IMG/VR virus record: IMGVR_UViG_3300036845_000230
Span: 1 to 32,520 of that record
Strand: one strand, 5' to 3'
Length of the DNA stretch: 32,520 nucleotides
Source: a virus
Of the stretch, positions 12,801 through 31,715 are shown one piece after another; position 1 is the first letter of the stretch, and every line of letters begins with the position of its first letter. The translations under genes were made by a program, and so were the position numbers. The notes below the pieces were generated by a model. It was not told the origin of the DNA, searched no databases, and worked only from the letters and a program-made list of their open reading frames with translations.

Positions 12801-13403
12801 CTTGATGGCATTGAATTGATCTTCACGCTTAACCGCTGAAGCAAATTTGCGCTGAAATTCATTGGCAATATCTGGCCGGATTTGATTGCGCAATTCCTCG
12901 AACATCTTGCTGCCGGTAATTCGCATTGCCTCAGCATGCGCCTCACCGATCTGCGCAATCATCCGCGCACCTTTTTCTCCTTCAATACCGGCGCGCGACA
13001 ACTGATCCAAGATATTTACGGCTCGAGAATAACTGATACCTGCCGCTTCAGCCCAACGAGAAGTTTCCCGAATGCCAGTGCCGAATTCTGCCATGCCCTT
13101 CGAGGCATTGTAGAACATGAAGCTGAGACCGGCAGCTTTGACCGCAGCACCACCGATATGCTGCGACATCCCTTCAAAGGATTTCTGCACACCGCGCAGT
13201 TCAATTCCCAAATTCTTAGTGAACTCACCGAGGATAGAAGTATGCCGACGCGTTGCCTCCATGAACCCACGATTAGACCGCTGAAGTTCGTTCAGCTCAC
13301 GCTGCAATCGCTGAAGGCCAGCCATCGCATCGTCTTGCAAGTCAACTTGCAAACGAAGCTGTTCAAACTGCGGTGATGATGGGGTTGGAGTGCGCGTCGG
13401 CAT
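9879..13403 (-). CDS. Tape-measure protein with lysozyme, hydrolase-like and M15-like domains
   Basis: This 1174-residue protein directly follows the tail chaperone frameshift product, the standard place for the tape measure (Mu gp42). The ATG at 13403 has a GAGGGA site and overlaps the upstream stop (TAATG). Domains in order: coiled-coil helices about 10-350; linkers with long glycine runs about 468-535; a phage-tail-lysozyme-like domain about 555-690 with candidate acid E592 (AIAESGL); an alpha/beta-hydrolase-like segment about 740-840 with GFSKG at 799-803 (putative nucleophile S801); a peptidase M15-like segment about 920-1035 with RHMHGGAAD (H960, D967) and AIHIGGG (H1023), the expected zinc ligands; then a tail shared with the next gene. 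The coiled coil sets tail length and the enzymes would open the cell wall on DNA entry. Domain names are by motif reading only. Confidence 0.88.
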   Translation of the reverse strand: MPTRTPTPSSPQFEQLRLQVDLQDDAMAGLQRLQRELNELQRSNRGFMEATRRHTSILGEFTKNLGIELRGVQKSFEGMSQHIGGAAVKAAGLSFMFYNASKGMAEFGTGIRETSRWAEAAGISYSRAVNILDQLSRAGIEGEKGARMIAQIGEAHAEAMRITGSKMFEELRNQIRPDIANEFQRKFASAVKREDQFNAIKEMFEGIETEVRRLNSTRSETYIQEQIALGKRTAARILGVDVEIDHVKSLHELDKKRSDLLETREKNAKAIAEDWDNTMANMKQIKDFFLSDAFRPDRGPARMIHDMRVGTEATYKILQSMESILSGHQLFEYFSMTPSFKAGMDFFNKMIDWARGTGGGKRATVGGHDLGPLVGQPWTPPEEQGNDDLANKLGAGSLSPLKPGGRSLGWQPQRFSGGGEETGQWFGGRLSTNIEDHRRAVTEDTEDRTTNSKLLKQVNEKLFQILNPPGGAGGRGGGGVGLGGGAAGLAAAFRSGGGGGGGGGRGFTSDSGGGSGVRGGGGATGGGGARGTSGDTGYKGSIPQPSAATKGGRYPNIENVKASAKDQLIKEGYTAEQAEIGANALVGQAIAESGLRSQYHDQGKKSGAAGGYVPSIYGADHSRGQAMMKWMKDNNLDPNDTSNQARWMAHEAQQYKGVVAELKKEHPDQGRVADVLTTDFEAPKTRYSPATQAERRRNAQIAAGVGAPKEIQQPTTTTPPATGPQAAAPSPDADKGAGDKVMIGFRGVGGAFDEAAFNAHARALGYRPVVMKSDNIGENNAQASEFIKNNPNSKIALYGFSKGTQAVSTFVQNNPNVKVDKVVTVAPFRSYNLDHLKKYDWDNFPDFSSGKIGPEGSGFKIQTEEHAKKAQQEVVTRLYGQKPEETQQTQQAKKQGDTPAPAEQTGPGVYQGQAGHQRPEAINPRLHGQLGAISGETGVGFDIFSGGEQEHGWHSGSGRHMHGGAADTTMYVMENGKKRYLQADNAEDRAKIQQVIASARRHGVTGIGIGPGYMEGHEGTAIHIGGGHEAHWGAGNSGANSPKWTVDAFEHPDKFPATFAGDTGAKSEPSKLPPTPSHPDYSGHAGAEMDMHKIRTTIDKTSSADKAQIETTGHLKADVIAPPNVKIQMAGTGAFKKTELVRHLTGGAGKIVHPHSDQGAPAPREQVHTAGGPT

Positions 13404-14458: not shown

Positions 14459-16054
14459 TTACTGCGATGGCGCACCGCTCGCCGCGTTAAACGGCGCTGG
14501 AGCCTGACCGATAATTTGGAGGTCGATGCCGCGGTCGTACTGGAGCCGAAATTGCGCCAACACTGCAAAGATGCGGAGTTGGTTGATCAGATCCGGCGGA
14601 TACAGTACGTTGACACGGTTCGGATCGTTCGGGTCACGCTCGACAATCAGATTGGCCTTGAACGCACTGAGGTTCTCGACAAGACCGTTCCACATGTCGA
14701 TTTGGTATTCGTTCACCAACTCGGCCTTGATGATGCCCGGAGTCACGATTGCCTGACCGGGACCAAACTTTGTTCCATCATCCGCCAACTTCGATCGTGG
14801 GAACTTGCTGGTGATCGCCTGCTTCTGGTTACGCAGAAGCTTGGCCAGCGTTGCCAACGTAGTCACCAACTCGTAGGCATCGTCAGGCTGTCCCCACAGA
14901 TTGAGTTGGTAGGACGTCTGTTCACGCAAGATCATTGGCTGATTGTCGGAACCGCGCTCCTGAATTGCCAAGCCATTGGAAGCAATCGAATTGAGCTCTG
15001 CCCAATTGAAGCTGTCCTGTACCGGGCAACCCTTAATATTGTTCAACGCCAACGTCTGCAACGGTCTGGCTGGATCGTTGATCAACGCGCGTTGCGCCTT
15101 GGCTGCATAAGCCGCCGTACATTCGACCATCATGGATGCCGTAGTCTGCTCGAACGCCATGATAGACTCCACAGCACTATTCAACGTGTCACCCCACAAG
15201 ATCAGGTTGGAGTAGGTGTCACGCTTTGCGCTGAACACATGACCAAACATCTGCCGGTTCCAGCCCCATCGACCTGAGTCAGTGAAGCCAAATTCTTGAT
15301 CCCACACGAACAAACTGTCACTGTCCGTATAGGGCATCGCAACATATTCGAAGGGAAGCTTCTGAATGTTGCTGATAGCATTGTCCATGATCGGGACGCC
15401 AGTGCCACCACTCAACATCCCACCAACCGGAAGAGTGATGCCAAGCCCAACGGGTGTGAACTCCGATCCCATCGTTCCATAATAGTTCATGGTAACGGTG
15501 ACATCGTTTCCGTTGACGCCCTTCCAGTTACATGTCAGATTGACAATCCCGCCAGTCGCCTCCTCCGCGACAACCGGCAATGCCGGTGTCCCCTCCGTAG
15601 CATATTGCGTGTTGATCTCATCGGCAATCGCCGTGGCAATATCATCGACTGTGTCGGTCGTCATGACATTGACGGGCACATGCGTACCGGCGATATAGAG
15701 ATGGATCGTACCAGCTTGCGTCGGTGGCGCAGTAATCACAATCTCTCCAGTCGCAGCTACTGCACCAACAGGTTCCGCAAGAGGCAATGCCCAGACCTCG
15801 TTCGCGAAATTGTTGGAGTAATATGCCTGGAACATCCGGCTGAGTTCGCTACCGGCACCGAAGAACGCATCAGCCATAGCCTGACTACCGATAGGCGTAG
15901 GGATATCGTGAGATGCGCTGCCATCGGAAGTCATGATGCCGACCATCAATGCACGGAGATTAATGCTCGGCAGACCTGCCATCGAAGGATCCACTTCCAC
16001 ATAGTAGAGTGGAACCTTGATATTGGCGGGGATATTTGAGAAACTGATCGGCAT
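14459..16054 (-). CDS. Tail sheath protein, Mu gpL-like
   Basis: This 531-residue contractile sheath protein is of the Mu gpL type. Family features run along the whole length: an N-terminal strap (SFSNIPANIKVPLYYVEVD), the variable insertion about 95-220, the conserved core PFEYVAMPYTDSDSLFVWDQ and GRWGWNRQMFGHVFSAKRDT, and the C-terminal domain LVNEYQIDMWNGLVENLSAF with ERDPNDPNRVNVLYPPDLI. The ATG has an AGAGGAG site. It is three bases from the DUF2635 gene stop, as in Mu (gp38-L-M). Its presence shows the virion has myovirus morphology. Confidence 0.96.
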   Translation of the reverse strand: MPISFSNIPANIKVPLYYVEVDPSMAGLPSINLRALMVGIMTSDGSASHDIPTPIGSQAMADAFFGAGSELSRMFQAYYSNNFANEVWALPLAEPVGAVAATGEIVITAPPTQAGTIHLYIAGTHVPVNVMTTDTVDDIATAIADEINTQYATEGTPALPVVAEEATGGIVNLTCNWKGVNGNDVTVTMNYYGTMGSEFTPVGLGITLPVGGMLSGGTGVPIMDNAISNIQKLPFEYVAMPYTDSDSLFVWDQEFGFTDSGRWGWNRQMFGHVFSAKRDTYSNLILWGDTLNSAVESIMAFEQTTASMMVECTAAYAAKAQRALINDPARPLQTLALNNIKGCPVQDSFNWAELNSIASNGLAIQERGSDNQPMILREQTSYQLNLWGQPDDAYELVTTLATLAKLLRNQKQAITSKFPRSKLADDGTKFGPGQAIVTPGIIKAELVNEYQIDMWNGLVENLSAFKANLIVERDPNDPNRVNVLYPPDLINQLRIFAVLAQFRLQYDRGIDLQIIGQAPAPFNAASGAPSQ

Positions 16055-16369: not shown

Positions 16370-16991
16370 TAGCCTGTTCCTTTCGTGAAGAGGTAAAGTC
16401 GTACACTACTTCTACCTGCTCTATTCCAGTTGAGTCAGAGGTCTGTTCAGTTGTAAACAATGTCTTCACATCAATCTCATTAAGCGTATCCGTGATATCC
16501 GGATACCACTCAGTGCGGAAAAAGAAATTCACCTCATATTGCAATTCAACAAAAGGCGTTTCGTTGGTGTTCTGCGGTGAACCGAATATATGCCGCCGCG
16601 TACCACGCACCACGCTCTCAACCATCACGCCTTCATCATTCTGCAAGTTTTCCACAACCTGCATGAAATGCAGATCTGTGAACATCGTTTTCATCAACAG
16701 CAGAAACGCTTGATCACTTTGCTGCTCGGCAACTACCGGGTCATTGTTGGCAATGACAACCGAAAACCCAATCCGCGCCGTATGACTAAAGCGCACACAG
16801 CCCGCATTCGCATCACCATCTGGCGTCATCACCTCCTCAGCCAGATAAATACCGAGATAAGGCAATTGATCTGGCTGCACCGGCAGCATTCTGTTCTTGC
16901 GAAGCTTGTAACCAGAAAAAGCTGGAGTCACCAAATCATAGATCGTATCACGAATTAGAAACGCAAAGCTTTGGGTTTCTGTAATAGGCAT
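16200..16991 (-). CDS. Putative tail terminator, Mu gp37-like position
   Basis: This 263-residue protein starts at a TAATG junction. Residues about 1-185 form a plausible tail-terminator fold: an N-terminal helix (SFAFLIRDTIYDLV), PDQLPYLGIYLAEEVMTPDG, then RIGFSVVIANND with a helix SDQAFLLLMKTMFTD, and a beta strand pair ending VELQYEVNFFFRTEWYPDIT. Tail terminators cap the tube at the head end and lie just before the sheath genes, as Mu gp37 does. The last about 55 residues are Arg/Pro/Gly-rich and overlap the next gene in the other frame, so that part may be a by-product of the overlap. Assignment is by position and predicted fold pattern. Confidence 0.7.
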   Translation of the reverse strand: MPITETQSFAFLIRDTIYDLVTPAFSGYKLRKNRMLPVQPDQLPYLGIYLAEEVMTPDGDANAGCVRFSHTARIGFSVVIANNDPVVAEQQSDQAFLLLMKTMFTDLHFMQVVENLQNDEGVMVESVVRGTRRHIFGSPQNTNETPFVELQYEVNFFFRTEWYPDITDTLNEIDVKTLFTTEQTSDSTGIEQVEVVYDFTSSRKEQANGERSDQSANAGTEAERKAGSDPGGRIPPRYPGGTGKRETPRRPKAPVRYSFPRDR

Positions 16992-17332
16992 TAGGAGACG
17001 ACGGCTCGCAATTGCAGCGTGACTTCACCACCACCATTGTGCCAAACATCAGTAATCTGGAACTGTCCCAATGCCGGTATGCCACTCGCTGGATCCATTG
17101 GAATATCTACGATATCCTCCTGCACTGGCAACGTGGGAAACTCTGCAGCCCGAATGTCAAAAATGGTTTGTTGATTAGTGATGATGCTGCCATCCTCCAG
17201 AATTACATTGAGCATGTCACTCTGATAGATGCCACGTCCAGGCCCGGTATAGCCGTTCCCAGAAAAATTGGCTGGACGACCGAAGGTGTCCTGACATGGC
17301 GCATACAAGTCTGATGAAAAATCTATCGCCAT
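16991..17332 (-). CDS. Putative head-closure / head-tail joining protein
   Basis: This 113-residue protein starts at ATG 17332 behind an AAGGAG site; in-frame codons further upstream overlap the previous gene and have no better site. The pattern is beta-rich: YAPCQDTFGRPANFSGNG, then SDMLNVILEDGSIITNQQTI, LPVQEDIVDIP and QITDVWHNGGGEVTLQLRAV. This layout resembles small closure proteins of the lambda FII / gpH kind that seal the portal and receive the tail, and the gene sits between head and tail modules, but I cannot name a family with certainty. Confidence 0.6.
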   Translation of the reverse strand: MAIDFSSDLYAPCQDTFGRPANFSGNGYTGPGRGIYQSDMLNVILEDGSIITNQQTIFDIRAAEFPTLPVQEDIVDIPMDPASGIPALGQFQITDVWHNGGGEVTLQLRAVVS

Positions 17333-17700
17333 TTCAATTTCTCCTTCATCAGTATTGCCATCCTGGAACAAAGCTGCTCATACAAGTGTGGCCGCAGGAT
17401 TGGCTTAGTCAAACTCAAGACGCGCGGCGTATGCAGCTTTCGAACGATTGCTTCCCTCACCTTACGGCGCTGGCGCATTACTCCACCAGTGCTGGCTTTC
17501 TTAGCTGAAGGCGTATGCTGCACAATAATCGTGTAGACGCTTTTTTCTTCACGTGTCGTATTCGGTTGGGTGCGACGCATGTCATTCGTCTGCCATTCCG
17601 TTAACTCAGTGCTCATGTCTTCCGGAAAGGCAGTCAGCCGTTGCTCCATATCAGTTATCGTCGCAAGCGCATCCTTGGCGTCTACGAAAACTTCAATCAC
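17323..17700 (-). CDS. Putative HK97 gp10-like head-tail protein
   Basis: This 125-residue protein probably starts with GTG at 17700, which overlaps the TGA of the second capsid gene (GTGA), so translation would be coupled. No clear ribosome-binding site is seen. An N-terminal helix (DAKDALATITDMEQRLTAF), a beta pair (EEKSVYTIIVQHTPS), a basic stretch (GVMRQRRKVREAIVRKLH) and the ending RPHLYEQLCSRMAILMKEKL are reminiscent of HK97 gp10 / minor tail connector proteins, which often end in a helix like this. It overlaps the next gene by ten bases. Function is by position and shape only. Confidence 0.6.
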   Translation of the reverse strand: MIEVFVDAKDALATITDMEQRLTAFPEDMSTELTEWQTNDMRRTQPNTTREEKSVYTIIVQHTPSAKKASTGGVMRQRRKVREAIVRKLHTPRVLSLTKPILRPHLYEQLCSRMAILMKEKLKWR

Positions 17701-18773
17701 CACTGCACCGCATTCATGAACGACGTGTGCGGCGCACGCATGCCCCATGTCGCACGCACCGTCATCTTAAGCGCAAAGGCATCGATCTGATACATAGATT
17801 TCACGGGAACCGCACCGCCGATATTCTGCGGCGTAGTATCTTCCATGTGCAATGCAGCCACTTTAGAAACAGTGAACTGCGGATCGCCGATGGCGAACGC
17901 CAAGCTTTCCGGCTCGATGGCTACAACTGAACCGACTGGCAAGCCAACACTGGCCGCAACAGGCAGAACATCAGTCGCAGGTGTCACGCTGAATTGTCCA
18001 CCGGCCCAGAACCGAATAGCGATTGCCTGCGCCGGAGCAGCCACGAAAAAGATCTTACGACCACCTCCACGAGTGGCAACATCCTGAACCAAGACGCCGA
18101 GATCTTGCGCGCAACTATCAAAGCCCAATGTCGAAGTAGACGTCGGCGGCAACGCAGTTAGACCATTGAGCAAACCTGCGGGTTGCACACCTGATGCTGG
18201 AGCAGCAGAAAACATGGCGGCATCAATTGCGATACCAGCAGCTTCTGTCAAAAGCTGACGGACGACAGCTTCGATATTTGATGCTTCCGTGAGTTCCCGT
18301 GTCATGGTCACAATACAAGCGACCTTGGTCGGCCGCAGCGTGGCACCAGGATAAAGGTTCATCTGGCGCACCGGAATGGGCTGTCCTTCTCCAACCCAAG
18401 TGCCAGCATCCGCCGCATGGACAGAACGACCAGGAACAGTCACGCTCGCTACATTGCCAAGGTCCACGCGCAATGCGCCAGCCAATGCCAAGCGCCACGC
18501 CACTGACATTGCAACAATATCTTCAACGGATTGTTCAATGGCAGTGTGCGTGAGTGGACCAGCCCAAGCCGCATCTGCAGTCGTGGCTTGCGTAGTAGCA
18601 GCACGCTCCAAGAGCGCAAGCGTCAAGCGATCATCCGGATATCGGGCCTTGCAAATTTCCACAGGATCTACACCCTCAATATAGCCTTTGAGGACTGCAG
18701 TCGCTTGCCGCCATACGTTGTCCATCCGGACGTTATCCAAACGAACATTCCAATCTTTACCGAGTTGTTTCAT
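17697..18773 (-). CDS. Second HK97-fold major capsid protein paralogue
   Basis: This 358-residue protein is clearly homologous to the capsid part of the protease-capsid gene at 22765-25311. Shared blocks in the same order are GTWVGEGQPIPVRQ (GSFVGEGQPIPVRQ there), TMTRELTEASNIEAVVRQLL (TWTREMDEYSIPAIEGLLRQ), ALHMEDTTPQNIGG (TLHMEDTTPQDITG) and PVKSMYQIDAFALKM (PVKSMWQTDSLALRM), ending in AVQW against GVQW. It has only a short N-terminal helix instead of the long delta-domain, and no protease. The ATG at 18773 has an AAAGG site seven bases upstream. It lies between the connector and gp10-like genes, away from the first capsid gene. It could form vertices (as T4 gp24 does beside gp23) or be a co-assembling minor subunit; that is inference. 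Confidence 0.9.
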   Translation of the reverse strand: MKQLGKDWNVRLDNVRMDNVWRQATAVLKGYIEGVDPVEICKARYPDDRLTLALLERAATTQATTADAAWAGPLTHTAIEQSVEDIVAMSVAWRLALAGALRVDLGNVASVTVPGRSVHAADAGTWVGEGQPIPVRQMNLYPGATLRPTKVACIVTMTRELTEASNIEAVVRQLLTEAAGIAIDAAMFSAAPASGVQPAGLLNGLTALPPTSTSTLGFDSCAQDLGVLVQDVATRGGGRKIFFVAAPAQAIAIRFWAGGQFSVTPATDVLPVAASVGLPVGSVVAIEPESLAFAIGDPQFTVSKVAALHMEDTTPQNIGGAVPVKSMYQIDAFALKMTVRATWGMRAPHTSFMNAVQW

Positions 18774-18785
18774 GGCCAAGCCTTT

Positions 18786-19490
18786 CTAGACCCAATGACG
18801 AATGTACTTGTTCAGCAACAACTGCACGGTGGTCCATGTTGCTGGCAATCCCAATGTGGGAAACATATTTGGACCGTAGTAGCCTATGCGACTTTCTTTG
18901 TGCGTCAACAGTCGCACGCCATAGGAACCTGGACTACGGATCCATGACATGTAGCTTTCACGGAGTAACGCCTCCACAGCAAACTTCAACGTTCCTGGCG
19001 CACCATCCGGCAGTTCATAACCGCCGCCATACTGAACGTCAATCGTGCCAAGCCATGAACCGAATTGATTGGGCATGTAAAGCGTGCCGGTTTCCTCTTC
19101 CAAAATCCAATAGCCTTGTCCACTTCCGGGCGCGCTACCTGGACCGGAAATCAAATATGGTAGAATATCCTCTCCATTACACGAGATGCTGGAAATATCA
19201 TCCAACTTCACCGGCCAACGAGACAAGTATAGTCGACCCGTAGTCACTATGCTGGCGTCTTCCAATTGCCAAAAGCTTTCTTCAACTTCTTCGAAGGCGA
19301 AAACTCGATTGCACAATTTGGCAATTGTCTCAGACAGGTTCGTAATGAGCTCTTGGATCAACGCATCCCATTGCGTGTTGGTGTCTGGTATCGCAAACTT
19401 CATTTTCATTTCTTCAAGCGACACCAAATCATACGGACCAGCCGGAGCAGTGGCAGTTGCCGGAGTAGTCACATTTAAGATTTGTTGCAT
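18786..19490 (-). CDS. Head-tail connector protein (HK97 gp6-like)
   Basis: This 234-residue protein belongs to the gp6-like connector group that forms a ring under the portal. The N-terminal part (LVSLEEMKMKFAIPDTNTQW, LIQELITNLSETIAKLCNR) is the helical gp6 core. A longer C-terminal extension with a beta region (TGRLYLSRWPVKLDDISSIS, GTIDVQYGGGYELPDGAPG) matches the longer members that continue with AVEALLRESY. The ATG has a strong AGGAG site. It lies between the collagen-like gene and the second capsid gene. Fit to the family is good on helix pattern and position. Confidence 0.85.
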   Translation of the reverse strand: MQQILNVTTPATATAPAGPYDLVSLEEMKMKFAIPDTNTQWDALIQELITNLSETIAKLCNRVFAFEEVEESFWQLEDASIVTTGRLYLSRWPVKLDDISSISCNGEDILPYLISGPGSAPGSGQGYWILEEETGTLYMPNQFGSWLGTIDVQYGGGYELPDGAPGTLKFAVEALLRESYMSWIRSPGSYGVRLLTHKESRIGYYGPNMFPTLGLPATWTTVQLLLNKYIRHWV

Positions 19491-19493
19491 GAC

Positions 19494-20948
19494 CTAACTC
19501 CTAGTCTCTTCTACGAACTGCTCAAACATGGTGCGCAAGTTCATCTTTGGACCCATCGTACCATCGCTCAGCACAGTCATAAGTTCGTAACCCTCAATCT
19601 TGACACCAGCCCAATGCGGCGCGGCTTTGCCTTGTAACCCTTGCACACCACGTTCGCCCGGTACTCCTTTTTCACCCTTCTTGCCTACCGGGCCAGATTG
19701 CCATCCTGGACCGGGAACTTCGCCTGGATTATCTCTTCGGGCAACAAACCAGCCGTGGTCGAGAGTGACAACATCAAGCGCCTTATAAGTTTCCTTCGGA
19801 TCATATGTGCCACGAATATTGAATGCTGCTCCGTCCTTTCCTGCGGCTGCGATGCATCGCCAATCACCAGACGTACTAGGCTCCTTGGCAGTATCACGCG
19901 TAGCCTGCCAGCTTGCTCCGGAGTGAGTGACGACATCACCTTCATAAAAGATGCGATCTGTCCATGGCACAATTGCGCTGATAGTTCCGCGCGGGCCGCA
20001 CTCACCGCGGTCTCCTCGCTCGCCCTTCTCACCCGGTAAACCCCTTTCGCCAATCGCGCCATTGCGGCCAGCGTCACCAGGATCTCCCTTTTCTCCTCGT
20101 TCACCACGCTCACCTTTCATTCCAACTAATCCGTCTAAGCCGTTGCGGCCCGGCTCTCCGAGATCGCCTTTTTCTCCACGCTCACCGCGCTCTCCGCGGT
20201 CGCCTTTTTCGCCGCGCGCTCCTTCAGGACCATTGCGGCCCGGCTCACCTGCTTCTCCACGAAGACCCTGTAACCCACCGGATCCCGGAGGGCCGATGGG
20301 GCCGCTTGGTCCAGCAGGTCCTGGCTCACCGCGCTCACCCCTTGGCCCTTGCTGACCGGGTTCACCTGGATCCCCTTTAACGCCTTCGACACCCGGAGGA
20401 CCCTGCGGACCGACCGACCCGGAGTCGCCGCGATCACCCTTTGTCCCTGCAAGACCAGCGACACCGTTGCTCCCCGGCTCACCGGCTTCACCTCTGTCAC
20501 CTTTCGGGCCGGATATCCCGGGAGTTCCTTGCACGCCGTCGTTTCCAGGAGGGCCGATTGGCCCTTGCTGACCGGGCTCGCCGGGATCACCCTTTTCCCC
20601 ACGTTCGCCTGGGAAGCCCTTTTCGCCCTGATCGCCTTTCTCTCCATTACTGCCGTTGCGTCCTGGCTCACCGGCCTCACCATTTTTCATCTCCAAGGCA
20701 CGTCTAGTAATTTGATCACTGAGAGCATTCGTTCTCTCTGCGTATTCCGCGCGGATCAGAGCAACAATTTCCCCATACTTGGCTTCGATCAATTGAAGCC
20801 TACGGGCATATTCTTGCTCTAGCCGTTCCTCGATCTTAGCAAGAGCATCTGCTCCAGCATCAAGGAGTGCGTCCGGAAATATACCGTTGCTGTCGGAGTC
20901 TTCCGGCTCGGTTGATAAGTGTTCTTGAATATGCGACGCGTCGTGCAT
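19494..20948 (-). CDS. Collagen-like fibre protein inside the head gene cluster
   Basis: This 484-residue protein starts with ATG at 20948, behind a GGGAG site, and overlaps the end of the portal gene by 89 bases. Residues about 36-88 are a charged amphipathic helix (KIEERLEQEYARRLQLIEAK), a likely trimerising coiled coil. Residues 90-323 are about 78 uninterrupted Gly-X-Y triplets, rich in charged GEK, GDR and GEP triplets but poor in Pro at position Y. Then come two short Trp/Tyr modules of CBM5/12-like pattern (YEGDVVTHSGASWQAT, YKALDVVTLDHGWFVA), a second short collagen stretch and a C-terminal segment (SDGTMGPKMNLRTMFEQFVE). A trimeric fibre on the capsid or neck with carbohydrate-binding tips is plausible. 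No catalytic residues are seen. Confidence 0.85.
   Translation of the reverse strand: MHDASHIQEHLSTEPEDSDSNGIFPDALLDAGADALAKIEERLEQEYARRLQLIEAKYGEIVALIRAEYAERTNALSDQITRRALEMKNGEAGEPGRNGSNGEKGDQGEKGFPGERGEKGDPGEPGQQGPIGPPGNDGVQGTPGISGPKGDRGEAGEPGSNGVAGLAGTKGDRGDSGSVGPQGPPGVEGVKGDPGEPGQQGPRGERGEPGPAGPSGPIGPPGSGGLQGLRGEAGEPGRNGPEGARGEKGDRGERGERGEKGDLGEPGRNGLDGLVGMKGERGERGEKGDPGDAGRNGAIGERGLPGEKGERGDRGECGPRGTISAIVPWTDRIFYEGDVVTHSGASWQATRDTAKEPSTSGDWRCIAAAGKDGAAFNIRGTYDPKETYKALDVVTLDHGWFVARRDNPGEVPGPGWQSGPVGKKGEKGVPGERGVQGLQGKAAPHWAGVKIEGYELMTVLSDGTMGPKMNLRTMFEQFVEETRS
19980..20681 (-). repeat. Collagen Gly-X-Y triplet repeat, about 78 units
   Basis: An uninterrupted nine-base periodicity of glycine codons encodes the collagen domain of the gene above. 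The triplets are degenerate at DNA level, yet short exact strings recur, such as the codons for GEAGEP followed by GRN or GSN (four near-copies), so the domain probably grew by internal duplication. Confidence 0.9.
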
Positions 20949-22314
20949 CTTTATTGCTCCCTTGCGGTTCCGGCTTCGCTGGTGCCGGTGGCTGCGGCGG
21001 AGCGGCTGGCGATGCAGGTATTTTCCCCGCTGCACTGAGCGGGACTACTTGTTGTTGCACGCGAGGCTCGTCACCAAATTTCACAGAGTCAAGATCTTCC
21101 GCGTTGCGTGCTTCATTAGGAGAATAGATGCCACCCTGCACACCGCGCGCAAGACCCTCGATACGATCCTTAAAGTCAGATCGCAAAAGTGATGTTGTAC
21201 TGAACTCGACATATTCGTCGGGTTGCCCTTCCAATCCAAATGCTTGATCGAAGGCTTCTTCCACATGATTGAGACAGAAGCCTAATCCAGTAGCGACCCA
21301 TTGTCGCATCATTGTTTCTGTATTTCCGCGCGCGCCTACCGCTGGCAAGCCGACAATCTGCGGTGGAACACGGAAAGCCATCGCGATATCTTGGTCAGAC
21401 AACTTCAGCATTTCTACAAGCTGAGCATCCTTCCAATTTGCGACAGGGATATTCTGTGGCTTAAGACCAGAAGTCAATATCGGCGTGCCACCAACATTGT
21501 TACCTGTTGTCTGTTCTGTCCACCGATCACGCAATGCGCTCACTTGATCTTTATCAAGGTTCATATCCGTGGACAACACAAAGCCCGGCTTGGGCTGCCG
21601 AGCATAGAACAGCATCTGCTGTTCACGAATGGTTGCGCCAGTAATCGTATCCAAATATGCCGCCATCAGCGGCGTCTGGCCAAGCAACGGATTGCGTAGT
21701 TGATCAACATGTAGTTTAATGTGAAGAACATCACGTTGTGGGATTGTCGCTAAAGGACCATAGCGGTTTTCAACAACCCAATTGCCACCGAGCGAATAAA
21801 AGACTTCACCATCACCATCAATCAATGCTCGGCAATAACGATTATCCATCAAATGAATTTCGTCGATTTCAAATCGTGCATTGCGCCTACAATACACATA
21901 GGCATTGCCTTGAAGATAAAGCTGACGCACCGAGTTCAACAAGAAATCAGACATAGTTTGATAATCATTGGGATAACGCAATAGTCGTGACAAAGCTGAA
22001 TTCGTAACTCTTATACGGCCGCCTTTGCCATTGGCCCGCCAATGATCTCCAGGACACATGGCCACTGTCTGGCTGTACGCCCCGACACATGCTTCAATGA
22101 TTGCCAGATTGGCGCTTTGCAGCCACGGAGTATATCCGTTCTGCCACCAATTCAATGAGTTGCCGACATCTCCAGGCAACCATCCATGCGTGACAGGCAG
22201 ATACCACGGACCGGGACGATACTGTCCTTCCGATCCGCCGCTGCCACTCGGCGCGTAACCAGCGGCCGTTTTTAAGACGGCCGCTGCACGTTTCATTCGG
22301 TCAGTGAAGCCCAT
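20860..22314 (-). CDS. Portal protein (HK97 family)
   Basis: This 484-residue portal protein forms the dodecameric gate through which DNA enters and leaves the head. Matching blocks of the HK97 portal family are NLAIIEACVGAYSQTVAMCP near residue 70, LRYPNDYQTMSDFLLNSVRQ, YLQGNAYVYCRRN, VLHIKLHVDQLRNPLLGQTP, and LVEMLKLSDQDIAMAFRVPP, followed by VGARGNTETMMRQW. The C-terminus after about residue 430 is a Pro-rich tail ending in basic residues, overlapping the collagen-like gene. It lies after the capsid gene in transcription order rather than before it, which is less usual for HK97-type heads. Confidence 0.95.
   Translation of the reverse strand: MGFTDRMKRAAAVLKTAAGYAPSGSGGSEGQYRPGPWYLPVTHGWLPGDVGNSLNWWQNGYTPWLQSANLAIIEACVGAYSQTVAMCPGDHWRANGKGGRIRVTNSALSRLLRYPNDYQTMSDFLLNSVRQLYLQGNAYVYCRRNARFEIDEIHLMDNRYCRALIDGDGEVFYSLGGNWVVENRYGPLATIPQRDVLHIKLHVDQLRNPLLGQTPLMAAYLDTITGATIREQQMLFYARQPKPGFVLSTDMNLDKDQVSALRDRWTEQTTGNNVGGTPILTSGLKPQNIPVANWKDAQLVEMLKLSDQDIAMAFRVPPQIVGLPAVGARGNTETMMRQWVATGLGFCLNHVEEAFDQAFGLEGQPDEYVEFSTTSLLRSDFKDRIEGLARGVQGGIYSPNEARNAEDLDSVKFGDEPRVQQQVVPLSAAGKIPASPAAPPQPPAPAKPEPQGSNKDARRVAYSRTLINRAGRLRQQRYISGRTP
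22261..22285 (-). other. Perfect 9-bp hairpin in the 5' part of the portal gene
   Basis: AGCGGCCGT and ACGGCCGCT pair perfectly around a seven-base loop, 30 to 54 bases after the portal start codon. It encodes the ordinary residues AAAVLKTAA, so it may be chance from a GC-rich alanine stretch, but a stem this strong near the start could slow translation. Confidence 0.4.
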
Positions 22315-22319
22315 CTAGG

Positions 22320-22688
22320 CTACGCCTTCGCTGAAGTATGACCGTGTTGCGGATTGTGCTGCCCACCACCACCACTATGCGTCGATGCAGTGGATTGGCG
22401 CGTAGCGTATCCGCCTCTGTTCTCGTGATCAGCTGCCATATTTCGATGAACGCCAAACCCGACATTCGGATCTTCCATCGAACCGTCCTTTGCGAGCTCA
22501 GGGTGTTCCCCAAGCTTGAGGAGATCACACTCCTCCTGCGTCGGTGTAGGCGTGCCCTTCATCGCTTCGATTTGCTTTTCGCGCGCCTGCTTGTCTTTGG
22601 CATCGGATGCGAGTTGCTTCCTGGCGTTTGCCGATGACTCCTTTTCTCGAGCCGATGTTTCCCGAGCCGCTGTTTCTCTATCTGCCAT
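22320..22688 (-). CDS. Small charged coiled-coil protein, unknown function
   Basis: This 122-residue hypothetical protein is between the capsid and portal genes. The ATG at 22688 has an AGGAG site seven bases upstream. The N-terminal 42 residues are a highly charged helix (MADRETAARETSAREKESSA). The middle carries PTPTQEECDLLKLGEHPELA, a motif I have seen in small phage head-region proteins without assigned function. The C-terminal 35 residues are Gly/His/Ser-rich and disordered. Its place could suit a scaffolding aid or a head-decorating protein, but nothing in the sequence proves either. Confidence 0.7.
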   Translation of the reverse strand: MADRETAARETSAREKESSANARKQLASDAKDKQAREKQIEAMKGTPTPTQEECDLLKLGEHPELAKDGSMEDPNVGFGVHRNMAADHENRGGYATRQSTASTHSGGGGQHNPQHGHTSAKA

Positions 22689-22707
22689 TTCAAACTCCTG
22701 TGTTAAA

Positions 22708-22731
22708 GAGGGCGAATGGGTTATCGCCCTC
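22708..22731 (-). terminator. Terminator-like hairpin after the capsid gene
   Basis: GAGGGCGA and TCGCCCTC form a perfect 8-bp GC-rich stem with an eight-base loop, 34 bases after the capsid stop. On the minus strand it is followed by TTTAAC, so the T run is only three bases. It would be a weak, leaky terminator or a 3' stabiliser letting capsid messenger exceed downstream messenger. Confidence 0.55.
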
Positions 22732-22764
22732 CTAGTAATAACCCACAACTAGCTCAAGGGTTTC

Positions 22765-25311
22765 TTAGCCCCACTGAACGCCAGTCATCCAGGACACGAC
22801 CGGACGACGCAGGATCCAGTTCATTCGCATGATCATGCGCAAAGCCAGCGAGTCTGTTTGCCACATGGACTTGACTGGCACGGCCGGCGACGGAGTACCA
22901 CCCGTGATATCCTGCGGGGTCGTGTCTTCCATATGCAGAGTAGCCTGATCACTGATTTCCATGCGCGGCCCTTCGGCGCCTGCCGTGACAAAGTCAGCGG
23001 CATCCACCATGATGACCATGCCTGGAGGCACGTTTGCCGACTCGATCAAATCGGCCTTGAGCAGCCGTCCAGCATCCATCATGACAATGAACGGGAACAA
23101 CGGCGTCGCCGCCGCCGGAGGCTGGATCATGCTGATCGCCAATCCTTGGATTGGGTTGATCAGAATGGTCGGACGCCTTACATTGCCGTTGGTCAAGTTG
23201 AGCAAGCCGCCATAGAGCGCCTTGTAGTCAGCAACGAAGTTCGGGAAGCCAACGCCAGCCGCTGACGGCGTCAGTCCAGTCTGGTACGAGCGCAAACCCG
23301 GAGGTGCGATAGCTGTTGCCACATTGGCGCCGATCAGCACCGCATCCATGGCAATCGCCGTATCCTCGAGGATTGCCTGCCGCAACAGACCCTCGATCGC
23401 CGGGATGGAATACTCGTCCATCTCGCGAGTCCAGGTCGTGATGACAGCCATCTTCTTTGGCGTCAAGGTCTGCGAAGCGAATGCGCCTTGCCGCACCGGA
23501 ATGGGCTGACCTTCACCGACGAAGGAGCCAGAGATAGACGGTGTCAGATTACGAGTCGGGATGACGATCCGCCCGTTGGCGCCGAAGGTGAGTGCGAGCC
23601 CCTTGGCCGCAAGCTGCGGATAAATGCTGACCGGGAGCAGGACTTGCATGAAGTCTGCCCAGATGGTCCGCACCAGTTCCGCGGCCCATCCAGTCACCGT
23701 TGTCATCGCCGGCGCCGATGTCGCCTTGAGGATCATATCGCACATGACCCGCGTGACTTCATCATCACCGTAGATCCGCTGACGAATGGCATCGATGCTT
23801 TGGCCTTCGGACTTGGACTTGCCCATGACCAGAGCCGCGCGGAACAGATAGTCCAGCGGTTCTGCCTTCTTCTTCGGAAGCACCAGACCGGGCGGTAGTT
23901 TGATCAAGTCCTTGCCCGACCGTGCCAATGCCGCTGGATCCTCCGCACGCTCACCATTGCGTGCTTCGGCTGCCTGAAGGCTCTTCAGGTTCCGCTGCGC
24001 ATTTTCGATCTTGGCGGTGAAGTCCTCCGTAAGAACCATCTGCTCTTCGGTTGGATCCTCGCCATAGCTTTCCAGATGCTTGTCCAGATTGTCCTGGAGC
24101 GACAGAACCTTCTTCTGTGCTTCCTGGATGCGTTGAGAGAGCAACATGGATTTTCCTTTCCCCTCTCCTGGTTTAATCTCGGCATGCTCGCCGGGTTTCT
24201 TCTCGCTCACCGCCCTCCGCTTGTTGGCATCCTCGCCACGGACAGCCGGGGTAAAACTCCTCTGCACGATGCTTCTGCTGGCATCCTCGCCAAACACCAT
24301 GCGCAAGGTTTCTCGACTAACGCCTAAGCTCTTCGCCACGGCCAAGGCGTTAGGATTGGCCGGTACCGCTACGACGCTGCACTCCATGAGTTCCTGTTCA
24401 GTGTATCGAACACCGAAGTTGTCCGTGTCTTCCAAAGGTTCATACTTTATCGGCTTGAACCCCACGGATGTTGCTCGTAGAATATCAGCGTCGATCAGGT
24501 TGCGGATTTCATCAATGCGATCGCTCGTTCCCCTCGGCGCCAGCACCAGCTTGGCGCGGAGATCCGTAGGACCAGCTTTGATATCTTCCCATTTTCCAAT
24601 GGGAAACGAACTCTGGTGATTGAAAAGTGCAATGGGATTTTTCTTGAACTGCGTAATCTTCCAACCAGCCGGTTCAACAATATCACCAAATCTATCTGGC
24701 GTGGCGTCGGACAAGATGAATTCCATACCAGAACCTTCGGTCGATCTGGTCTTGTGCATGACCAGCCCGGCAGCTTTGTCATCACCGTTGTCTTGGGCAT
24801 CATCCCAAGCCATCTGGCAAGCTTCCTCGGCATCGTCATCCGCCATGTCGTCACATTCGTCCATGCAACGATCCATGAAGTCTTCATGGCTTTCACCATC
24901 GTCCGGATCTGGAACATCCGCCTTCTGCACCACCTCCTTGCGCAAGAAGGCGATGACTGTCTTATCGGTCGGCGGACCTTCCTTGCCGATCTGGGTTTTC
25001 CAAGCCGCAGTAATTCGCAGCTTGATCCGCGACAACTGCGCCTCGTTATATTCCTTATTCTTGGTATTAATCAAATACCAGGAACAACGAATATCGTCCG
25101 GCGTATCGAGCGGATAGCGCTTCTTGCCATCCGAACGATAACCTGGATCGGCGAATTCACTCATCGTAGCCTCCTTCTTGTTGTCGCGCCATATCTGCAG
25201 GCAGGCCGCGACAGCTTGATCTTGATCACGCTTACCATCGCCCATCATTTCAGGTACACAACGACCCATGAAATCGTCTTGGCTTTCGCCCTTATGTGGC
25301 TTCATCGGCAT
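22765..25311 (-). CDS. Prohead protease fused to HK97-type major capsid protein
   Basis: One 848-residue frame runs through both functions. Start at 25311 has a GGAAGGAAG site and overlaps the previous gene by 20 bases. Residues 8-42 and 138-170 carry a repeated GESxxDFMxRC motif with a later AC or AxxAC pair. Residues 60-110 resemble DUF6582 (KKRYPLDTPDDI). Residues about 183-345 are an HK97-type protease: GDIVEPAGWKI, LFNHQSSFPIGKW (H232), LRATSVGFKPI (S282), VVAVPANPNA. After a charged linker (355-388) comes a coiled-coil delta-domain-like region (389-450) and the capsid fold to the end (GEGQPIPVRQ, ITTWTREMDEY, HMEDTTPQD). Internal starts with good sites exist at 25164 and 24147. The first releases protease and capsid from the N-terminal motif; the second makes capsid alone (460 residues). 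Confidence 0.93.
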   Translation of the reverse strand: MPMKPHKGESQDDFMGRCVPEMMGDGKRDQDQAVAACLQIWRDNKKEATMSEFADPGYRSDGKKRYPLDTPDDIRCSWYLINTKNKEYNEAQLSRIKLRITAAWKTQIGKEGPPTDKTVIAFLRKEVVQKADVPDPDDGESHEDFMDRCMDECDDMADDDAEEACQMAWDDAQDNGDDKAAGLVMHKTRSTEGSGMEFILSDATPDRFGDIVEPAGWKITQFKKNPIALFNHQSSFPIGKWEDIKAGPTDLRAKLVLAPRGTSDRIDEIRNLIDADILRATSVGFKPIKYEPLEDTDNFGVRYTEQELMECSVVAVPANPNALAVAKSLGVSRETLRMVFGEDASRSIVQRSFTPAVRGEDANKRRAVSEKKPGEHAEIKPGEGKGKSMLLSQRIQEAQKKVLSLQDNLDKHLESYGEDPTEEQMVLTEDFTAKIENAQRNLKSLQAAEARNGERAEDPAALARSGKDLIKLPPGLVLPKKKAEPLDYLFRAALVMGKSKSEGQSIDAIRQRIYGDDEVTRVMCDMILKATSAPAMTTVTGWAAELVRTIWADFMQVLLPVSIYPQLAAKGLALTFGANGRIVIPTRNLTPSISGSFVGEGQPIPVRQGAFASQTLTPKKMAVITTWTREMDEYSIPAIEGLLRQAILEDTAIAMDAVLIGANVATAIAPPGLRSYQTGLTPSAAGVGFPNFVADYKALYGGLLNLTNGNVRRPTILINPIQGLAISMIQPPAAATPLFPFIVMMDAGRLLKADLIESANVPPGMVIMVDAADFVTAGAEGPRMEISDQATLHMEDTTPQDITGGTPSPAVPVKSMWQTDSLALRMIMRMNWILRRPVVSWMTGVQWG
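24145..24159 (-). promoter_or_regulatory. Internal ribosome-binding site and ATG for capsid alone
   Basis: AAAGGA lies six bases before an in-frame ATG at 24147, preceded by more purine-rich sequence (AGGAGAGGGG). The site falls exactly at the boundary between the protease linker and the delta-domain-like helix that starts the capsid part. This could let capsid protein be made in excess of protease, as the internal start of lambda Nu3 does for scaffold. Confidence 0.6.
25162..25176 (-). promoter_or_regulatory. Perfect internal Shine-Dalgarno before an in-frame ATG
   Basis: AAGGAGG, five bases before an in-frame ATG at 25164 (protein begins MSEFADPGYR), is the strongest ribosome-binding site near this gene's beginning and better than that of the upstream start at 25311. 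A shorter 799-residue fusion lacking the first Cys motif is therefore likely made as well or instead. Confidence 0.6.
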
Positions 25312-25565: not shown

Positions 25566-28500
25566 TCAATAGTTATAATATTCTTCGATGTAGACGCCGC
25601 CGATACCACCAGCCGCGCCGCCTGCCAAAGCTGCGCCTGCTGCGCCGAGTACGCCGGTGATCGTCCCTGGAGCACTGACGATGATTTCAGCACAAGCTCC
25701 CGCACCGCCACCCGGACCACCAGGACCGGCCGATGCCGCAGCGTAGGAACCGCCACCACCGCCCGCGCCAGTTCCAGGCTTGCCCGCCGTTCCACTACCT
25801 TGCCCGCCACCACCGCCGCCACCACCAAACATATTGACACCACCACTGCCGCCCGCGCTGTACTGCGTATAAGTGCCGGTGCCTAGACCATCACCACCGC
25901 TAGCTTGAAACACGATATTCCAATTCGTCGGCAGAGTACCAACGGTGACCGCACCACCTACGCCGGGAGCAACGCTGATACCAGCCTTGCCACCACCGAG
26001 CGTCAATGCGAGCACGCCACCGACACTGAACGTCAGGTCGGCCGCATTATTTCCTCCTTGCCCGTTATTCCCAGAACCACCAGCGCCACTCGCTGCTGTC
26101 CTAATCCGGATCCATCTAACTGTATTGCCGCCAGCATTAGTCGGCGTATAGGTGAACGCGCCAGCCGCAGTGATTTTCTGCGTCGTCGGCGGCTGAGCAA
26201 CGATCGGACCCGTTGATGTTCCAGGAGGACCTTGCGGGCCGACTGGACCAATCTGCAGCAATATCGCGACCATATTAACGGCCGCACCAGCATTCGCCGT
26301 ACTCAAGAACGTTGTGTTGGTGCTCTGTACCCCTTGAACTTGGATAGTATCCGTCGTACCGTTGCAGTAGATCAACGCGCTCGCTGTCTGCGCACCAGTG
26401 TAGGCCGATCCACCAGTGACAAATCTAATGCTCTGTGACTCTGCAGTAGAGAGCGAACCGTTCTTCAGGATTGCAACGCCAATCCAACCGTTGGCGACCC
26501 AAGCCGCACCTATCGATGCGCTGATAGCGTAGACGCCAGCGACCTTCGGCGTATAGATACCTGTTGAAGTATTGAAGGTTCCACCCTGAACATCAGTAAC
26601 GATGGTGTCGTACTTGAGAGTGTTCCAGGCTCCCGCAGTCACGCCTGTCTGATTGGCATTCAGTGCAACTTCAAGAGCAATCTGTGCAGGCGTGCCAACA
26701 CTTGATCCGGGCGTACCCTGAATGCCTTGTGGACCTTGTGGACCCTGCGGTCCACTCTGCAACAGCGTCACCACCATGTTAGTCACAGCGGTAGCTGTGG
26801 TGCTGCTGGAATTATAGATAATCGTTCCAGCCGGAAAAGCTTGACACTGAATGGTATCTGTCGTGCCGTTACAATAAATCAGCGCCGACATACTCACTGG
26901 CTCAGCGTTCGGCGTCGTAAAGTTGGCCACCGCGCGATAAGCCTGTGACTCTGGTCCCTTCAAATTGCCATTCTTCAAAATGGCAATGCCGGTCCAACCA
27001 CCATTAATTAGACCTGTCGCGAAACCTGCACTAACCGCATAGAGGCCCGCTTGTGTCGGAGTGAATATTCCAGTTGCTGTGTTATAACCATTTTGAAGAT
27101 CAGTGATCTTCGTGTCGTACTTGACTGCTTGCCATGCGTTCGCAGTAACCGTTAGATTGTTGGCCAGACCAACTTCAAGAACAACATTCGCTGGAGTGGC
27201 TCCGCCGCCAGCAGATTTTACGAATGCCGTAGTTGCTAGCTTAGTAGAATTATCCGTGCTCGCCTGTGTCGGCGCCGTTGGATTTCCAGTCAGTGCTGGC
27301 GAAGCCAACGGTGCGAAGATCGCATCTATGTTATTCCATGCGCTGTTTTCACGCGCGTAGTTATGCCCATCAGTCGGCGCTTCCGGGACTGGACCCGCTG
27401 GTCCTGTTGGTCCTGCCGGTCCTGCTGGACCCGTCGCTCCAGGAGTTCCAGGCGCGCCAGTGGCTCCAGCTACGCCTTGGACACCCTGAGGTCCTGGAAC
27501 ACCAGCAAGATTGATATTCCAATCAGCATGCGTCCCAGAACCAAGGACAGTATCGACGTTGACTGTCAAGTTGCTGCCACTATAGGCGGTGACCTGACCT
27601 TCCATCCAGGTGTTGGCAGTCCCGGCGCTTGCCGCACGCACACGAGCACCGACAGAATAAGCCAGACCCGTTTGTGTTGAAAAAATACAAGAGCCAATTC
27701 CAATCGTCAGAGAAGTCGTGCTGCTCGCCGTGTAACCCGCGCCCGGATTTCCCTGCGGCCCTGCCGGTCCTGTCGCACCAGTATTTCCTGGAACACCTTG
27801 AATGCCCTGCGGTCCCGCTGGACCACTGTCCGTCTTATAGACTTTGAAAAAGCTGGTCGATCCTGTAACCGTGGCTCCTGCACCATAACCCCAGACTTCC
27901 AGATAATCATTGACTGCAAGAATGAGAACACATTGAACGTTGACGTAGGACTTACCATTATCAGCAGAGCCGGTGAAAGTAGTGCCGTTCTTATAAAGAG
28001 CCAATCCACCGACACCGGCTCCAGCAGCAACGTTGACAAAAGTATCAACCAAATACGTGCCAGCAACTTTACAAACCCAACGATAGAGTGTTGGATTAAA
28101 CCCTGCCTGCGTATCTGTGATAATGCTGTTGAACGGCAGCTTGTTCCAAGAAGCAGGCAGACCATAGTTTGTTGTCGACGTGGTGCTGAGCACTTGCGGC
28201 ATGCCCGGACCAGCCGTGCCACCGCCTCCACCTCCGCCACCAGCTTGCGTCGTATCTACAATACTGAGCTCAGTCCAAATGCCGGTAGGATCACAGCAAT
28301 AATAGCCAATCGTCTTGTTCGATATCGTTCTGTTCGCTGCACCGAGCAATATAAGGTTCGTGCCGTTCTGAAGAACAATGTTTCCACCAGAAGGCTCGAA
28401 CGTGACTTGCTTGGTGATGCCGACATTTACGACTTCCGGCGGATCTACGCTTGGATCTATTAGCTGCGGTCCAGGCGGAGGCCCGAAAGAACTGATCGTA

Positions 28501-28631
28501 CCATTGCCGGTGATGATAATCTTGTTCGTATCAACACTATCATCAGGAGGCGCCAGATCAACCTCAGGCGCGCATGGCAACGTTAGACTAGGCGCGTCTC
28601 CCTGCGCGCATTGCCATGGCATTATGCCCAA
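25566..28631 (-). CDS. Large fibre protein with collagen, C1q-like and Gly-rich domains
   Basis: This 1021-residue protein starts with TTG at 28631. An AAAGGAG site lies ten bases upstream, a TGA sits just upstream in frame, and the next ATG is too far from the site. Domains in order: N-terminal beta region 1-130; C1q/TNF-like beta sandwich about 152-265; collagen 268-298; a beta module 300-376; collagen 378-414; a fibre linker 421-472 (DGHNYARENSAWNN, STKLATTAFV); two further C1q-like domains about 482-625 and 649-793, each with ILKNG and the identical ALIYCNGTTDTIQ; short collagen pieces between them; and a polyglycine C-terminal domain 820-1021 ending GGVYIEEYYNY, as in several tail-fibre tips. 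It is a likely trimeric receptor-binding or decoration fibre. Its location among packaging and head genes is unusual. Confidence 0.88.
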   Translation of the reverse strand: MGIMPWQCAQGDAPSLTLPCAPEVDLAPPDDSVDTNKIIITGNGTISSFGPPPGPQLIDPSVDPPEVVNVGITKQVTFEPSGGNIVLQNGTNLILLGAANRTISNKTIGYYCCDPTGIWTELSIVDTTQAGGGGGGGGTAGPGMPQVLSTTSTTNYGLPASWNKLPFNSIITDTQAGFNPTLYRWVCKVAGTYLVDTFVNVAAGAGVGGLALYKNGTTFTGSADNGKSYVNVQCVLILAVNDYLEVWGYGAGATVTGSTSFFKVYKTDSGPAGPQGIQGVPGNTGATGPAGPQGNPGAGYTASSTTSLTIGIGSCIFSTQTGLAYSVGARVRAASAGTANTWMEGQVTAYSGSNLTVNVDTVLGSGTHADWNINLAGVPGPQGVQGVAGATGAPGTPGATGPAGPAGPTGPAGPVPEAPTDGHNYARENSAWNNIDAIFAPLASPALTGNPTAPTQASTDNSTKLATTAFVKSAGGGATPANVVLEVGLANNLTVTANAWQAVKYDTKITDLQNGYNTATGIFTPTQAGLYAVSAGFATGLINGGWTGIAILKNGNLKGPESQAYRAVANFTTPNAEPVSMSALIYCNGTTDTIQCQAFPAGTIIYNSSSTTATAVTNMVVTLLQSGPQGPQGPQGIQGTPGSSVGTPAQIALEVALNANQTGVTAGAWNTLKYDTIVTDVQGGTFNTSTGIYTPKVAGVYAISASIGAAWVANGWIGVAILKNGSLSTAESQSIRFVTGGSAYTGAQTASALIYCNGTTDTIQVQGVQSTNTTFLSTANAGAAVNMVAILLQIGPVGPQGPPGTSTGPIVAQPPTTQKITAAGAFTYTPTNAGGNTVRWIRIRTAASGAGGSGNNGQGGNNAADLTFSVGGVLALTLGGGKAGISVAPGVGGAVTVGTLPTNWNIVFQASGGDGLGTGTYTQYSAGGSGGVNMFGGGGGGGGQGSGTAGKPGTGAGGGGGSYAAASAGPGGPGGGAGACAEIIVSAPGTITGVLGAAGAALAGGAAGGIGGVYIEEYYNY

Positions 28632-30113: not shown

Positions 30114-31715
30114 TCAGCCGATCATGGCTTCAACATCAATTTCCTGTGCTCTCAACGGTGCTACGCCCATTGCCATCGCGAGCGCCACCATGCCGTCTAT
30201 TCGACCTGAAGATTTATTCTTGGACAAACGTCGATTGGCGCTATCCTTTCCCTCCACAACGCTGTTCGCCGCGCACATTTTCAACACTGGATGATTGCCG
30301 TGCGCCATCTTATCATCTAGTAAAATCTGTTCTAGGTCCCGCAACGCCGGTGACATGGATTTCTTGCCCTGCCCGAACTCAACAAATTTCTCATTGAACT
30401 CCTGCTCATTAAATCCATTTTCCAACAGCCACGGTTTCAAATGCTTCATGTTCCATGAGTCAAACGCCAGCTTGCGAATATCATAGGTGTCGAACACTTG
30501 CCGCAGCACCACTGCGATATACTGGTAGCTGACGCTGCGGCCGGGCGTGGTTTGAAGGAAACCTTGCTGCGCCCATAGATCGTAAGGTACTCTGTCATTC
30601 CGTGCCTTCTCGGACAGTCCCTCTTCAGGCAACCAGAATGTAGGATGCACCGACCACTTGCCATGAACGAAACCAACCAGCACTAAAGCCGTGAGATCCC
30701 TGACTTCACTTAAGTCCAACCCTGCATAAACCGCAACCTTCCCCAGATCATCGGGCTCGTCCCCATTGCGATCCCACACGCCATGGGAAATGAATGGAGA
30801 TACCGCTTCGACACGCTGATTGAGCACCAGATTACGATATTCTTGCTCTCGTGCTGGCATGCGCTTGGCATCCTGAGCCATCGCCATAGCTTCTCGAGGA
30901 TTGAGGAAATCCCCGAAAGCCGGATTGGCCAGCCGCACCGCCTCTTCACTGAACGGGTCCAGATCCATCGGCGCGCTATACACTCGGCATATCACGCGCG
31001 GATCCGCTTCAGTCAGAGCATCATCGATCAGCACACTCAACAAGTCTGCATCCGTCGGCGCCTGCGTACTGATGATCAGGCTCAGCGGGTTTTCCTGCGC
31101 GCCTGTCGCCGTCTCCAAAGCATCATAGAGTGCGCTGCGTGGCCCGCGTACTTGCCCGAGCTCATCATGAACTACGAATACCGGTGACAAGCCGTAAGCC
31201 GTGGTGACCTCTGCACTCAACGCTCTATAAGTGCTGCGATAAGCCGTGAAGAACAATTGCTTGTGCGTTTCACGGATAATCACTTGGTTTTGAAGGACCG
31301 GTGCCATCCTGATCATCTTTGCAGCAAGACTAAAGATGATCGCAGCCTGCTCCCGGCTTTGTGCTGCGGAGTAAAGGTTCGAATTCGGTATAGCCTTCGG
31401 CCCGCAGAGATGCACCAGAAGCAAGCAGGCACTCAGCGCCGTCTTTCCGTTCTTACGTGCAAAGCTGAGGATAGCACGTCTGGTGCCAGATGGATTATCA
31501 TAAATCCGTGTGATCTCTTCCTTCTGCCATCTTGCCAATCGAAACGGCTCGCCGATCAAACGGCCTTCCGGCACGAAAAGGGTATGTTCAATCCAACCTA
31601 TGATCTGCTTCGCCGTAACTTCATCAGGCGGCAGAGTCATCCATTTCGACGGCCGTCGGACCTCGGGCGAAAGTGTTGGCTTCGTCGATTTCTTTCTTTT
31701 GCTTTCGGGGCTCAT
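30114..31715 (-). CDS. terL: Terminase large subunit
   Basis: This 533-residue packaging motor subunit has an N-terminal ATPase and a C-terminal nuclease. The ATPase has a Walker A-like motif SFARKNGKTA (84-93), a Walker B motif VFVVHDE (D184, E185) and the coupling motif LIISTQAP (213-220). The nuclease has three acidic sites of RNase H type: AGLDLS (D334), AFDSWN (D419) and RIDGMVALAMAMG (D507). This arrangement and the length fit the HK97-type terminase_1 family. It overlaps the small subunit by 92 bases. The ATG at 31715 has only a weak ribosome-binding site, so coupling with the upstream gene is likely. Confidence 0.96.
   Translation of the reverse strand: MSPESKRKKSTKPTLSPEVRRPSKWMTLPPDEVTAKQIIGWIEHTLFVPEGRLIGEPFRLARWQKEEITRIYDNPSGTRRAILSFARKNGKTALSACLLLVHLCGPKAIPNSNLYSAAQSREQAAIIFSLAAKMIRMAPVLQNQVIIRETHKQLFFTAYRSTYRALSAEVTTAYGLSPVFVVHDELGQVRGPRSALYDALETATGAQENPLSLIISTQAPTDADLLSVLIDDALTEADPRVICRVYSAPMDLDPFSEEAVRLANPAFGDFLNPREAMAMAQDAKRMPAREQEYRNLVLNQRVEAVSPFISHGVWDRNGDEPDDLGKVAVYAGLDLSEVRDLTALVLVGFVHGKWSVHPTFWLPEEGLSEKARNDRVPYDLWAQQGFLQTTPGRSVSYQYIAVVLRQVFDTYDIRKLAFDSWNMKHLKPWLLENGFNEQEFNEKFVEFGQGKKSMSPALRDLEQILLDDKMAHGNHPVLKMCAANSVVEGKDSANRRLSKNKSSGRIDGMVALAMAMGVAPLRAQEIDVEAMIG

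Follow-up and report, generated by a model that had tools for sequence, protein, structure and literature searches.

In most well-studied heads of the HK97 type, a single protein makes up both the pentamers and the hexamers, and bacteriophage T4 is the textbook exception. To our knowledge, two main head-shell proteins are rare outside T4-type phages. The T4 protein gp24 is thought to be a duplication product of gp23; the two are about 20% identical and share one fold (PMC9958956). While gp24 loses just 10 N-terminal residues, the main protein gp23 sheds a long N-terminal part in maturation (PMC9958956).

We investigated a 32,520-base IMG/VR virus contig (IMGVR_UViG_3300036845_000230), called the window here; its coordinates are contig positions and refer to the (-) strand. 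A preliminary description of the window had claimed two HK97-fold major capsid proteins in one phage. Direct alignment, family profiles, pairing across relatives and purifying selection all agree with two paralogous HK97-type capsid proteins, namely a stand-alone protein (MCP1) and the capsid domain of a protease fusion (MCP2). As read from the sequences, the pair belongs to a widespread, old and selected two-capsid system in soil phages, which is a stronger statement than the original one.

The two capsid genes and their neighbours

Every recognised gene of the window lies on the (-) strand. The gene order is terminase large subunit (30114-31715, PHROG 9), a large fibre-like protein, the protease–capsid fusion (22765-25311), a small conserved gene with no family match (22320-22748), portal (20860-22314, PF04860), a collagen-like protein kept in relatives with and without MCP1 (19494-21035), head–tail adaptor (18786-19490, PHROG 442), MCP1 (17697-18773), an unassigned gene (17323-17748), a head closure or attachment protein (16991-17371, PHROG 82 and PF05354), contractile tail sheath (14459-16054, PHROG 165), tube and baseplate genes. 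The presence of sheath, tube and baseplate genes indicates a contractile-tailed phage. The fibre-like protein (25566-28631, 1021 aa), immediately upstream of the protease–capsid gene, has collagen-type repeats. Two large proteins of the tail region (9879-13403, 1174 aa, and 7477-9879, 800 aa) have no PHROG match. The PHROG 184 baseplate hub is matched by two overlapping out-of-frame ORFs (6788-7477 and 6250-6918, together 6250-7477), pointing to a split gene, a frameshift or a sequencing error.

MCP1 (358 aa) is encoded by an intact frame with an ATG start, AGAAAGG upstream and a TGA stop. It matches PHROG 617 'major head protein' (E 1.4e-17) and, over the cut-off, Pfam PF05065 Phage_capsid (8e-8), and the profile of its lineage matches the solved capsid chain 9d9w (E 1e-4). 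The short N-terminal extension reported before is indeed all that precedes the capsid region common to both proteins, at about 17 residues, and MCP1 carries neither a delta domain nor a protease. The gene had been placed between connector and gp10-like genes. On the first side, the adaptor ends 12 bases ahead of the MCP1 start; the gp10-like assignment is unconfirmed, since the gene at 17323-17748, whose predicted frame overlaps the 3' end of MCP1, has no family match.

The fusion gene has its best start at an ATG after GGAAGG and forms one frame of 848 aa. It matches PHROG 617 (2.7e-70), PHROG 80 'head maturation protease' and Pfam Peptidase_S78, and the last two matches bear out the fused protease of the preliminary description. 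An S78-type prohead protease (24148-25311, 388 aa ahead of an internal Met), a delta-like scaffold region (23902-24147, MLLSQRIQEAQKKVLSLQDNLDKHLES...) and the MCP2 capsid domain (22765-23901) share this single frame. The delta-like region is assigned from its position, the earlier coiled-coil call and what is known of HK97 gp5, and the capsid domain from its alignment to MCP1 and its family match. MCP2 falls slightly below the PF05065 cut-off (24.0 vs 24.2 bits, 3e-5), and its profile matches the solved capsid chains 8gta (E 4e-9) and 9d9w (3e-7).

We found an in-frame ATG at the start of the delta-like region (24147), which coincides with an end coordinate of the region first described and is conserved among the fusions of relatives. 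It follows the Shine-Dalgarno-like GGAAAGGAAAATCC (GGAAAGGAAAATCC-ATG). Across 75 distinct relatives, the upstream match to the Shine-Dalgarno consensus has a mean of 4.19; the remaining Met codons inside the gene average 2.53 (p 8e-36), and synonymous recodings do not exceed 3.52. The conserved ATG and this signal therefore predict that the internal start probably also gives a separate delta–MCP2 product of 460 aa (22765-24147), like HK97 gp5.

BLASTP aligns MCP1 with the fusion at 33% identity over about 340 aa (154 bits, E 1e-45), spanning MCP1 residues 19-360 when numbered on the 360-aa TTG frame. All of the common blocks noticed earlier (GEGQPIPVRQ, TRE, HMEDTTPQ, PVKSM and the VQW end) lie within this alignment, and the profile-to-profile comparison of the two, which had been proposed as a check, gave 100% probability (E 7e-68). 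AlphaFold models of MCP1 and MCP2 built from shallow alignments reached mean pLDDT values of only 38 and 42. The HK97 fold of both proteins is nevertheless well supported by homology, because both match phage capsid families and solved capsid chains. Twenty-eight columns are conserved and yet different between MCP1 and MCP2; they are scattered along the protein and not limited to the axial domain.

Relatives, ancestry and selection

We found MCP1 orthologues in 27 contigs of the viral collection including the window, the 26 others being 46-67% identical. Each of these contigs has an open capsid frame, and the proteins comprise 24 distinct sequences. A tblastn search of the annotated phage collection gave no match to MCP1. 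Scanning bacterial genomes with the MCP1 alignment likewise recovered no MCP1, and the cultured genomes gave only a related type described below (loci L110 and L115). A search for conserved pairing in related phages had been suggested, and its outcome is uniform: MCP2 is present in 12 of the 12 distinct contigs that reach far enough upstream (counted by contig name, window included). In all 12, the genes lie on the same strand in the order protease–MCP2, small gene, portal, collagen-like gene, adaptor and MCP1, with the MCP1 start 3.5-5.9 kb past MCP2. Where MCP1 stands alone, the sequence upstream of it runs to no more than 3.9 kb, which is too short for these loci to be evidence against pairing.

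A sister group of MCP1 occupies another site, between the terminase and the protease–capsid gene, in related soil phages and Bradyrhizobium prophages. We named it the upstream type (UP). The N-terminus of UP, like that of MCP1, lies nearly at the start of the capsid domain, with no delta domain and no protease. A dedicated search yielded 73 distinct UP proteins with open capsid frames. Both UP and MCP2 are found in 68 loci, all co-oriented (54 distinct with full-length MCP2), at a spacing of 1.1-6.8 kb. A further 19 UP loci lacking MCP2 end 69-5053 bases downstream, within the range of that spacing, so that none is a clear counter-example. UP occurs in the cultured strains Bradyrhizobium stylosanthis BR 446 (L115) and B. 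erythrophlei GAS478 (L110). In one viral contig (L181), two tandem second-type genes (2890-3942 and 3955-4953) that are 40% identical to each other accompany a protease–capsid fusion (7209-9878), making three capsid paralogues.

Many close relatives have MCP2 alone. Prophages of Bradyrhizobium, Ensifer and Sphingomonas (L109, L111-L114 and L116-L119) share the protease–capsid, portal and collagen-like genes with the window, and those of Bradyrhizobium also the adaptor and sheath. Unlike the window, they have one capsid protein, and a second-type gene is absent both from the interval between adaptor and sheath and from the region upstream of the protease. MCP2-only virus records of 45-77 kb likewise have a single capsid match each. 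Since so many close relatives lack it, the second capsid protein is not generally required for heads in this family, and across the family its gene is optional.

In capsid trees with PAJU2 and JLK-2012 as the outgroup, MCP1 forms one clade (100/98), UP forms another (100/100), and the MCP1 and UP group stands apart from MCP2 (100/99.6). Adding 25 further UP rows left this arrangement unchanged. A recent duplication within the clade of the window was rejected (p-AU 0.006), as were UP as a copy of the MCP2 of its own phage (p-AU 5e-5) and MCP1 outside a group of UP and MCP2 (p-AU 0.001). A position of UP outside all others was not rejected (p-AU 0.08), and the tree has long branches. By these trees, MCP1 and UP are one second-capsid lineage with neither delta domain nor protease, and this lineage is old, because a recent duplication and a copy of the phage's own MCP2 are both rejected. 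Its history would involve either many losses or passage between phages.

We then examined how MCP1 evolves. Close MCP1 pairs have a dN/dS of about 0.03-0.2, comparable to MCP2, with values for distant pairs being unreliable owing to saturation. Protein distances of MCP1 follow those of MCP2 (Mantel r 0.88, n=9 phages, p 1e-4), as do those of UP (r 0.67, n=54, p 1e-4), a correlation that taken alone is also expected from shared genome descent. Relative to MCP2 of the same phages, MCP1 diverges 1.5x and UP 1.45x as fast. Together, the dN/dS values and the distance correlations rule out a decaying relic and favour a protein used together with MCP2. The preliminary description had named decay of the gene as part of a refuting outcome, and this is also dismissed by the open capsid frame in every relative. 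In the window, codon GC3 of MCP1 (0.48) is close to that of the portal (0.42) and adaptor (0.48), with MCP2 at 0.68 and the sheath at 0.62. As a proxy for copy number this pattern fails across relatives, where MCP1 has no consistent low-copy sign.

Possible roles of MCP1

The best explanation for these data is that MCP1 is a functional second shell subunit. The protein is an old MCP2 paralogue maintained by purifying selection, and it probably co-assembles into the same head as MCP2. Having no scaffold domain of its own, MCP1 would be unable to initiate a head by itself. Both forms of MCP2, the protease fusion and the separate delta–MCP2 from the internal start, would build the procapsid around the portal, and MCP1 would then be recruited into the MCP2 lattice in dependence on the scaffold domain of MCP2. 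Our leading reading, put forward tentatively by analogy, is that MCP1 occupies the pentameric vertices in the manner of T4 gp24. MCP1 would then form the vertices while MCP2 keeps the hexamers, as in T4. Several points stand against a vertex role. The MCP2 of paired phages has no convincing shared change marking a lost ability to form pentamers (1 site, against 10 and 18 in controls), the 28 columns that set the two proteins apart are scattered along their length, codon use has no consistent mark of a low-copy protein, and many relatives have only one capsid protein.

Alternatively, MCP1 may take part in hexamers as a minor component, or may change the size or geometry of the capsid, rather than be a dedicated vertex protein. 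We regard this as possible but rather unlikely. The conservation and pairing data apply to it equally, the absence of the gene from many relatives would be in keeping with a dispensable regulator of size or stability, and the coexistence of two second-type proteins with MCP2 in L181 is not predicted by a single vertex role. However, purifying selection this strong points to a fixed place in the structure. That same selection makes a decaying relic, left by capsid replacement or by transfer of the gene from one phage to another, barely credible. The tree topology would permit acquisition of the old lineage by transfer, and the gene site differs between the MCP1 and UP groups, but such a relic is already contradicted by the open capsid frames of 24 distinct MCP1 and 73 distinct UP proteins, the dN/dS of 0.03-0.2 in close pairs and the divergence correlated with MCP2.

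Two further explanations would take MCP1 out of the phage's own head. HK97-type folds can self-assemble without a delta domain, as encapsulins do, and MCP1 is a full-length, stand-alone protein of this type. It might thus form a separate shell, be it another kind of particle or a compartment of the encapsulin type. This is improbable, as MCP1 lies inside the head–tail gene cluster beside the adaptor and head-closure genes, its protein distances correlate with those of MCP2, and no conserved cargo gene came to notice among its neighbours. Redirection of phage capsid assembly is known from satellite systems, and MCP1 could similarly interfere with how competing phages or satellites build their heads, or serve as a decoy for capsid-sensing host systems. 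Evolution faster than that of MCP2 would fit such a conflict. We hold this to be a shade less probable still, given the location of MCP1 in the late structural operon, the strong purifying selection on capsid frames free of internal stops, and the presence of the MCP2 partner wherever it is visible.

Returning to a subunit of the phage head, a broader proposal has a somewhat better than even chance in our estimation. It holds that alphaproteobacterial soil phages carry an old, T4-independent lineage of two-component HK97 heads, in which the delta-less paralogue would make up a distinct portion of the shell. The gene would have moved between two sites and, in one phage, been duplicated itself to give three paralogues. 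If so, the evolution of HK97 heads from one to multiple components would be visible among close relatives. Relatives with one, two and three (L181) capsid proteins coexist, and the timing and cause of the gain of the second protein are therefore testable by comparison. Experiments are also practical, since cultured Bradyrhizobium strains carry both two-capsid and one-capsid prophages.

Comparison with known two-capsid and fused-protease phages

The second protein was found in no described phage of the annotated collection. No HK97-type two-capsid pair outside T4 and jumbo phages came to light in the open-licence literature, although an earlier report is possible. One apparent case, Stenotrophomonas phage SOVA965 (L021:4182-5587), is probably one split gene, because its two 'major capsid protein' genes each cover half of the same capsid domain, one after the other.

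Like T4 with gp23 and gp24, the window represents a myophage with a pair of HK97-fold capsid paralogues, and MCP1 resembles gp24 in having a short N-terminal extension where the main protein has a long N-terminal part. The pair of the window differs from that of T4 in its identity (about 33% vs about 20%), in its origin, which is separate as far as visible, and in its absence from many close relatives. The T4 capsid family does not appear among the Pfam and PHROG matches, nor T4 chains among the PDB profile matches, which places the pair outside the gp23/gp24 family by these searches. The proposed likeness in role to gp24, the vertex protein of T4, is one of analogy.

Also unlike T4, the main protein of the window is a protease fusion of the kind seen in PAJU2 and PHROG 617. 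Pseudomonas phage PAJU2 and Escherichia phage JLK-2012 have, like the window, a fused protease–capsid gene beside portal and adaptor genes, at 26% identity over 72-74% of the fusion. Unlike the window, they have one annotated capsid gene in the stretches compared. We take the delta-like N-terminal region of MCP2 and the S78-type protease to be equivalent to features of HK97 gp4/gp5. The window departs from the HK97 arrangement in joining the protease and the delta–MCP in one frame, in its probable internal start and in its second capsid protein.
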